Source: Pantoea sp. Ep11b
GTDB taxonomy: Bacteria > Pseudomonadota > Gammaproteobacteria > Enterobacterales > Enterobacteriaceae
DNA length: 64,000 nt
NCBI RefSeq assembly: GCF_040783975.1
Contig: NZ_CP160631.1
Span: 3,224,001 to 3,288,000 of the forward strand
Direction of reading: 5' to 3'
Part shown: positions 60,190 to 62,095 of the stretch, piece after piece
Layout of the letters: each line of letters opens with the position of its first letter
Position numbering within the stretch: position 1 is the first letter of the stretch
Notes under the pieces: generated by a model
What the model was told of the DNA's origin: nothing
The model's input: the letters and a program-made list of their open reading frames with translations, nothing else
Databases searched by the model: none
Translations under genes and position numbers: made by a program

Positions 60190-60348
60190 CGAAAAGCTCC
60201 ATAGTCGTTATCTGTTTCATCCAGCCTGATTGTTATAACGGCTTTAATAAGATGTTAAATGTAACTCGCAGAGACCTGATAACAGATTCCGTCAGCGGTT
60301 GCCAGCGAACGGCATCACAGGACGCCGTTTCCGGATTATGGCCGGGTG

Positions 60349-61509
60349 TCAGGATTTCATGACGGCGCGCAGGCGGGTCACGGATTTCTGCACCAGGGCA
60401 ATGGCGTAGTCAATCTCTTCTTCTGTGGTAAAACGCCCCAGCGAGAAGCGCAGCGAACTGTGCGCCAGCTCCTCGTTCAGCCCCATCGCCCGCAGGACAT
60501 AAGAGGGCTCCAGGCTGGCAGAAGTACAGGCGGAGCCGGAAGAGAGCGCCAGATCTTTCAGCGCCATAATCAGGGATTCCCCTTCAACGTCAGCAAAACT
60601 GAGGTTGAGAATGTTCGGCGCGCCCTGCTGAAGAGTGCCATTAAGAGAAACGCCGGGCAGCACGCTGATCCCCTCCCACAGGCGCAGGCGCAGGCGCTGC
60701 AGTCGCGCCATCTCGGTTTCGCGCTCTTCGGCGGCGATACGATAGGCTTCCCCCATTCCAACAATCTGATGCACCGGCAGCGTGCCGGAGCGCATACCGC
60801 GCTCGTGGCCGCCGCCGTGGATCTGCGCCGCAATCTGCACGCGCGGTTTGCGCCGCACATAAAGCGCACCGATCCCTTTCGGGCCATAGAGTTTGTGGGC
60901 AGAGAAGGACATCAGGTCCACCGGCAGCACACTGAGATCGATCGGCAGTTTGCCAACGCTCTGGGTCGCATCCACATGAAACAGAATCGCCCGTTCGCGG
61001 CAGAGTTCGCCAAAGGCGGCGATATCCTGAATCACGCCGGTTTCATTATTCACATGCATCAGGGTGACAAGAATGGTGTCATCACGCAGCGCCGCGCGCA
61101 GCTGGTCGGGCGAGATAATGCCGTCTGCAGCCGGAGCCAGATAGGTGACCGTAAAGCCTTCGCGCTCAAGCTGCTGGCAGCTGTCGAGCACCGCTTTATG
61201 TTCTGTCTGGCTGGTGATGATATGTCTGCCGCGCGCCTGATGAGCGTGGGCCGCCCCTTTAATCGCGAGGTTATCCGATTCGGTAGCGCCGGACGTGAAG
61301 ACGATTTCGCGCGGATCGGCATTGACCAGTTCGGCGATCTGATTGCGGGCGACATCCACCGCCTCTTCAGACTGCCAGCCAAAACGGTGCGATCGCGAGG
61401 CCGGATTACCGAACGTGCCATCCAGCGTCAGAAACTGCATCATTTTGCTGGCCACACGCGGATCGGCCGGCGTGGTGGCGGCATAATCCAGGTAAATCGG
61501 TAATTTCAT
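60349..61509 (-). CDS. iscS: cysteine desulfurase IscS, short C-terminus
   Basis: IscS is a PLP enzyme that takes sulfur from cysteine as a persulfide. The product has 386 residues; E. coli IscS has 404. The PLP lysine ([12 protein letters not shown]) and the mobile-loop cysteine ([13 protein letters not shown]) are intact, so it should be active. It ends [10 protein letters not shown], missing the tail that in E. coli continues with [18 protein letters not shown] and helps bind IscU. No frameshift restores the tail in the following bases. It could still feed tRNA thiolation, thiamine and other sulfur acceptors. iscU and the rest of the operon are absent downstream. Confidence 0.95.
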
Positions 61510-61597
61510 TGCGCTACAGCTCCGTATTAAAAATCATACGTCTTTATAGCAGATTCGGCCCTGACCGCGTTAGCAGTAAGGGCCGGAACAGCGGGGA

Positions 61598-62095
61598 TCA
61601 GGAGGCGCGCTGGTTAACGTTAATTTCCTGAGCGCGCGGGCTCTGGAAGCGACGATTATCGTTGGCATTCTGGCGGTCGGCCACATCCAGGATCTCCTGA
61701 TTGTTTACCAGCTCCGCCAGCGTGATGTTGTTCAGGAAATCACTGATGCGCACGCTCAGGTCGCGCCACAGGACGTGGGTCAGGCAACGTTCGCCCCCCT
61801 GACAGCCCTCTTTGCCCTGACATTTCGTGGCATCGACGGACTCATCAACAGCGGTGATCACTTCCCCGACGGAGATGGTATTGGATGCTTTGCCCAGCAG
61901 ATAACCCCCGCCCGGCCCACGGACGCTGGAGACCAGATCGTTTTTACGCAGCCGCGAAAATAACTGCTCCAGATAGGAGAGCGAGATGCCCTGACGTTCA
62001 GAAATATCAGCCAGCGGAACGGGGCCTTCATGAGAGTGAAGGGCAACGTCCAGCATGGCAGTCACGGCATAACGTCCTTTGGATGTCAGTCTCAT
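61598..62095 (-). CDS. iscR: Fe-S-sensing transcription factor IscR
   Basis: IscR is an Rrf2-family regulator that represses isc when it carries a [2Fe-2S] cluster and activates suf when it does not. From the ATG at 62095 ([19 protein letters not shown]) it has 165 residues (162 in E. coli). The winged helix ([20 protein letters not shown]) and the cluster ligands ([17 protein letters not shown]: three cysteines and a histidine) are complete. Three IscR-type sites lie upstream, so it probably still represses itself. iscS follows 88 bases on. Confidence 0.97.

Follow-up and report, generated by a model that had tools for sequence, protein, structure and literature searches.

The window, by which we mean the whole stretch of 64,000 nucleotides that was analysed, comes from a Pantoea. 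Among named loci its nearest relative is P. anthophila, with an IscS that is 94% identical. The minus strand carries trmJ (62241-62978), iscR (61598-62095), iscS (60349-61509), pepB (58903-60189) and sseB (58092-58889), and suhB (63111-63914, plus strand) is divergent from them. By tblastn, the E. coli order of SseB, PepB, IscS, IscR, TrmJ and SuhB is preserved. In this arrangement trmJ is the flank preceding iscR, pepB is the flank past the deletion described below, and suhB and sseB are further flanks, the latter conserved at 65% identity to E. coli.

At the position of E. coli iscU-iscA-hscB-hscA-fdx-iscX, the window has exactly 159 non-coding bases (60190-60348). A tblastn search of the window with E. 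coli IscU, IscA, HscB, HscA, Fdx and IscX gave no match at E<=1e-6. An earlier sequence-only reading of this DNA had given both this spacing between iscS and pepB and the loss of the six genes from the locus, and both are borne out. Its statement that no remnants are visible is not quite right, because the scar holds a probable relic of the iscX 3' end, on the minus strand at about 60212-60228, 5' of pepB. The relic has an ungapped score of 14, against a maximum of 11 among shuffles, and none of 60 shuffles equalled it. In relatives the same test is less sharp, with 1 of 60 shuffles as good in P. anthophila and 3 of 60 in P. stewartii.

The iscS gene encodes a cysteine desulfurase of 386 amino acids, versus 404 in E. 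coli, and the two are 81% identical over residues 1-381. It scores above the NCBIfam IscS equivalog cut-offs (656.1 for TIGR02006, cut-off 643.2; 683 for NF010611, cut-off 548). The catalytic H104, the PLP lysine K206 and the active-site cysteine C328 are unchanged, as are, judged by sequence, the TusA contacts W45, E49, D52, R55, D65 and R237. Elsewhere there are the differences F89A, R112Q, R225Q, E227A and D346E. The protein terminates in RLRAVMKS, so that the 21 residues of the E. coli tail (384-404) are missing; that IscS falls about 20 residues short and lacks the IscU-binding tail had been read correctly.

IscR is 165 amino acids long and has its [2Fe-2S] ligands (CCCH). Upstream of it, on the minus strand at 62159-62233, are three tandem sites at 25 bp spacing that resemble type-1 IscR sites. 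They match, at 19, 19 and 22 of 25 positions, what we take to be the type-1 consensus. The E. coli locus has two such sites versus the three in the window.

Gene content of the genome and its relatives

The genome of the window, 99.91% complete, consists of 2 contigs that total 4.03 Mb. It has no match to NifU_N, the IscU domain, and hence neither an ISC-type nor a NIF-type scaffold was found. The HscA and HscB models gave sub-cut-off matches only, DnaK- and DnaJ-like in appearance. Fdx had no match, and frataxin (CyaY) was not found. An ISC cluster elsewhere in the genome is thus ruled out as far as IscU, HscA, HscB and Fdx are concerned. TusA and ThiI are both present. So is a complete sufA-sufB-sufC-sufD-sufS-sufE run, at about G000:C1:2130311-2135891 (within the locus G000:C1:2128300-2138300, called L130), where SufA, SufB, SufS and SufE were assigned by name and SufC and SufD by tblastn.

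The absence is genus-wide. An IscU-type protein was found in 0 of 61 genomes of the genus, one of them only 74% complete, and frataxin likewise in 0 of 61. Six of these genomes (G006, G022, G291, G303, G304, G314), otherwise IscU-less, do have NifU_N matches, in longer, NifU-like open frames of 280-319 amino acids, perhaps the NifU of nitrogen fixation. The iscS-pepB junction also recurs in P. anthophila, P. stewartii, Erwinia persicina and others. Since these were assembled independently, and since none of the 61 genus members has an IscU-type gene, an assembly deletion or chimera in the genome of the window is scarcely credible. The contig number and completeness of that genome also speak against it, and no point in its favour was found.

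Of 246 family genomes drawn evenly, 169 had a NifU_N match. By our own count IscU is absent in 25 of the 159 sampled family genomes of at least 3.0 Mb. These are 23 without a NifU_N match plus two (G175, G251) with only a weaker NifU-type match and with HscA not over its cut-off. IscS itself is found at E<=1e-60 in 69 of 79 IscU-less genomes (a set that excludes the operon-bearing genome G268), and the 10 without it measure 0.3-0.6 Mb.

The 33 larger of these 79 were compared with 14 control genomes that have the operon, using curated cut-offs. HscA, HscB, Fdx and frataxin are each over cut-off in 0 of 33 IscU-less genomes versus 14 of 14 controls. SufB goes the other way (33 of 33 versus 9 of 14). 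TusA is universal (33 of 33, 14 of 14). A strong ThiI match (E < 1e-60) exists in 28 of 33 versus 14 of 14, and the five genomes without one are of 1.2-2.2 Mb. In all 14 suf loci read from genomes without the operon, SufA, B, C, D, S and E were found. Pantoea and its kin mostly have genomes of 4-6 Mb, so the loss cannot be put down to genome reduction.

The loss of frataxin along with ISC was to be expected, because a survey of 2742 genomes found CyaY only in species that also have IscU (PMC4440780). What is newly added here is that this co-loss recurs within Enterobacterales, with SUF remaining.

Repeated loss and its traces

Below, loci with the operon are called ISC+ and those without it ISC-. 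Where flanks were available, in 30 ISC- loci, pepB comes 45-792 bases after iscS (lengths approximate to a few bases), and no intact ISC gene lies between them. The clearest trace is in genome G153 (locus L105), which has an iscX pseudogene between iscS and pepB, with stops and an internal deletion. Weaker iscX-like ends are present in the gaps of G043, G065, G139 and G138. When the shuffle test for the iscX end was applied to 16 ISC- gaps, 7 scored better than all 60 shuffles and 2 better than all but one. The remaining 7 have no clear signal, and three of them are plainly relic-free.

Genome G077 shows an operon in decay. At locus L115, about 5901-6017 and beyond, pieces of iscU and fdx with stop codons lie 3' of an iscS that is intact and tail-less and still has Arg112. 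This is perhaps a recent loss.

Two other kinds of locus were observed in passing. Tandem TGTCAT-like repeats, seen by eye, lie between iscS and pepB in L026, L092 and L101; 5' of pepB, they resemble what we take to be a Pho box. L081 and L088, from gammaproteobacterial MAGs, have iscA and hscBA immediately after iscS, with no iscU match. The IscS of both has its tail and Arg112, and both were excluded from the site counts given further on.

A tree was made by a quick method from suhB, trmJ, pepB and sseB of 62 loci (30 ISC-, 32 ISC+). Four ISC- loci without flanks (L098, L107, L114, L115) are outside this tree and outside the seven clades used below, and are within the site counts. The tree implies 7 changes of ISC state, at least 4 of them on supported branches. 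A tree with the ISC- rows constrained to a single clade is worse by 708 log units (AU p = 2.6e-5), and a single origin of the loss is rejected. Pantoea together with Erwinia persicina forms one of the ISC- sets; Lonsdalea and a group of eight genomes are further ones, among others. ISC is retained in Mixta and in Erwinia OLFS4.

Counting changes on a tree cannot separate gain from loss. It could therefore be supposed that the ISC- state is the older one, and that ISC+ lineages regained the operon by horizontal transfer. The sole support for this is the ISC+ genome G268, which is placed among ISC- relatives and whose ISC proteins lie on a long branch that is not securely placed. Against regain, the tree of ISC proteins from the ISC+ rows is broadly congruent with that of the flanking genes, grouping Mixta, Erwinia OLFS4, G145 and G187 together, and Samsonia with Symbiopectobacterium. 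In addition, the operon adjoins trmJ in Vibrio and Aeromonas loci too, and some ISC- genomes hold relics of iscX, iscU and fdx. For these reasons the direction is taken to be loss and not gain, and regain is very improbable. From these sequences, related bacteria seem to have undergone this loss on several occasions.

Decay of IscS contacts

In E. coli, IscU binds IscS at residues 309-316 and 347, at the end of helix 11 and at 379-391, and this binding is abolished or weakened when residues 376-404 (374-404 in one table) are deleted (PMC2854127). This agrees with the statement in the sequence-only reading that the C-terminal region contributes to IscU binding. The same paper lists W45, E49, D52, R55, R237 and others as TusA contacts. 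A docking model in which Arg112 and Arg116 of the second protomer touch Glu80 and Glu82 of ferredoxin, and a weakened ferredoxin binding of the R112E/R116E mutant, are described in PMC3750173.

The tail is lost where iscU is lost. Among the 81 loci L009-L089, the 74 outside the seven ISC- ones encode an IscS that is 404 amino acids long in 73 cases and 402 in one. The tails of ISC- proteins are degenerate in all cases read, with total lengths of 382-405 amino acids and differing sequences. In 14 small genomes that were read they are likewise degenerate (381-406). Among the tree rows, a strict tail motif is present in 31 of 32 ISC+ versus 0 of 30 ISC-, the lone exception being Vibrio locus L050, which has a full tail differing in detail. 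Arg112 is present in 32 of 32 versus 0 of 30, and the TusA quartet in 32 of 32 and 30 of 30. These rows are not independent. In four independent supported pairs Arg112 tracks ISC in 4 of 4, although a sign test with 4 pairs cannot reach p < 0.05. The earlier proposal that loss of the scaffold and loss of its docking site belong together is supported, as tail loss tracks iscU loss across relatives.

A wider set consists of 86 ISC+ and 33 ISC- rows, with L110 dropped because it is identical to L030. Of 143 body columns invariant in ISC+, 95 are unchanged in every ISC- row. Arg112 is invariant in the 86 ISC+ sequences and changed in 32 of 33 ISC- ones, to L, H, Q, A, E, Y or I. It is the sole ISC+-invariant body column changed in all 7 of our self-defined clades (29 of the 33 rows). 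It is retained in the ISC- row of G077, where isc relics are visible, and in the small genome G152. Arg112 was found by ranking columns and was not predicted beforehand, and it does belong to an earlier-published set of contacts. Equivalents of Arg112 in human NFS1 were looked for in limited literature and not found there.

Contact sets were compared with random invariant body columns, for which the background is 7.6% of cells changed. In the frataxin/IscX/Fdx set 29% of cells are changed (P = 0.0006). A fuller list of 12 residues, which adds the unchanged 39 and 327, gives 24% (P = 0.0013), or 18% without Arg112 (P = 0.03), so that Arg112 alone makes up much of this signal. IscU contacts in the body (309-316, 347) have changed moderately (17%, P = 0.07), and decay of the IscU site therefore rests mainly on the tail, where 68% of cells in invariant columns are changed in ISC- rows. 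For TusA contacts the figure is 1%, or 3% on a fuller list.

The split between lost and kept partners is not clean. ThiI is kept, yet 18% of cells in its published contact list are changed (P = 0.04), through residues 89, 116 and 223. This list overlaps the frataxin patch and is not spared in the way the TusA list is. Separately, TusA contact 49 or 52 differs from E. coli in 11 of 53 distant ISC+ rows (L055, L074, L076-L078, L080, L083-L087), mostly as D52E.

The iscS body is under purifying selection. Its dN/dS is 0.051 between the window and P. anthophila, and ranges over 0.04-0.13 in seven ISC- pairs and 0.02-0.05 in five ISC+ pairs.

A shortened IscS might still aid cluster assembly by feeding SUF, for example by giving sulfur to SufE or SufBCD, with its surface fitted to the new partner. 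Its place behind IscR, with IscR-type promoter sites, would be sensible if it served cluster assembly, and that the SufS and SufE present are sufficient is an assumption. However, SufS is a dedicated desulfurase, and it is there. Because the tails and the replacements of Arg112 differ among lineages, relaxation is also favoured over convergence on a new site. We regard the feeding of SUF as improbable.

The IscR ligands CCCH are intact in 30 of 30 ISC- loci examined and 21 of 22 ISC+ ones, and ISC- loci have sites like the type-1 consensus 5' of iscR. In the ISC- loci L098 and L114 no iscR match was found beside iscS. Because its ligands and promoter sites are kept, IscR in the window presumably still senses clusters, which would now be SUF-made, and controls iscRS.

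Upstream of sufA, a Fur-box-like palindrome scores 11-12 of 19 in three Pantoea genomes, 16-17 in four of six ISC+ genomes, 13-14 in the other two, and 12-15 in other ISC- genomes. No claim is drawn from these scores, because they are confounded with ancestry. In the window's genome the region 5' of sufA (L130, 1812-2011) also has an IscR-site-like stretch, CCCTGCAAAACAAGAGGTTG, that by eye is conserved. A weak Fur box with an IscR-like site would perhaps mean that iron control is relaxed where SUF is the sole system.

Interpretation and known systems

Very probably, to go by the genes and sites present, SUF took over cluster assembly and IscS is the surviving sulfur-relay enzyme, with its ISC docking surfaces shed. 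The lineage ancestral to Pantoea and its closest kin would have deleted iscU-iscA-hscB-hscA-fdx-iscX, the far border of the deletion probably lying close to the end of iscX, and frataxin (cyaY) would have been lost as well. SUF (SufABCDSE) would then build Fe-S clusters, including that of IscR, which would continue to control iscRS. IscS would survive because other acceptors need it, TusA for s2U34 and Moco, and ThiI for s4U8 and thiamine. Once the ISC partners were gone, selection on their docking surfaces would end, so that the IscU-binding tail and the ferredoxin, frataxin and IscX contacts, chiefly Arg112, would decay, with TusA contacts and active site staying fixed. Of all this, the gene losses, the presence of SUF, the repetition in several lineages of Enterobacterales and the selective decay of contacts are shown by the sequences.

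The sequence-only reading had likewise seen IscS as a sulfur donor and SUF as the maker of clusters. This is supported, the functional half through gene content and site conservation, which suggest that SUF supplies the clusters and that IscS relays sulfur only. Recurrence in several lineages, the loss of frataxin and decay of the ferredoxin/frataxin/IscX patch go beyond that reading. Taken as a whole, it is rather likely that replacement of ISC by SUF is a recurrent route among free-living Enterobacterales and follows a shared plan, in which iscR-iscS stays while iscU to iscX, cyaY and the partner surfaces of IscS are lost.

Broad phylogenomic surveys of ISC and SUF exist, and could hold the raw distribution. 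Among the matches listed from open-licence full texts, with subscription papers outside that scope, neither ISC loss in Pantoea nor such IscS decay is described. In a 2024 paper (PMC11559095), most bacteria are described as having a single system, in contrast to the two of E. coli and its enterobacterial relatives. A 2022 study of iscR in Pantoea stewartii (PMC8882988) treats IscR along the lines of E. coli and counts suf as a second pathway; the P. stewartii isc locus (L010) is without the ISC core. SUF-only life is common, so parts of this are ordinary. Its repetition inside the two-system model group is unusual, and the observation is informative at residue level.

For the IscS hub, these recurring losses amount to an experiment of nature, in which residues for cluster assembly can be told apart from those for sulfur relay, and they single out Arg112 as a sharp test. 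If the reading is true, there is a natural residue map of IscS, with Arg112 and the tail for cluster assembly only and W45, E49, D52 and R55 for sulfur relay. It also touches frataxin. CyaY has been proposed as a physiological regulator of SufS (PMC11446229), whereas the 33 IscU-less genomes tested all have SufB and none has CyaY. If the reading holds, this suggests that selection keeps frataxin for its ISC role and not for the proposed control of SufS.

Compared with the E. coli ISC system (iscRSUA-hscBA-fdx-iscX), the window is alike in having iscR and iscS between trmJ and pepB, the IscR ligands and the promoter sites. It is unlike it in being without the six genes after iscS, cyaY, the IscU-binding tail and Arg112. 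SUF-only bacteria such as Mycobacterium tuberculosis, Staphylococcus aureus and Enterococcus faecalis (PMC11559095) resemble Pantoea in that SUF is the sole assembly system found there too. They differ in that lineages of the Pantoea type appear descended from two-system ancestors, have kept IscR and IscS, and have a SUF of the E. coli type, sufABCDSE. Small genomes, probably of symbionts, also have IscS without IscU and with degenerate tails, but Pantoea and its kin have, as noted, mostly genomes of 4-6 Mb. Similar in form is E. coli IscS deleted for residues 374/376-404, in which the tail is missing and IscU binding is abolished or lowered (PMC2854127). In Pantoea the loss is natural, and further contacts have decayed with it.
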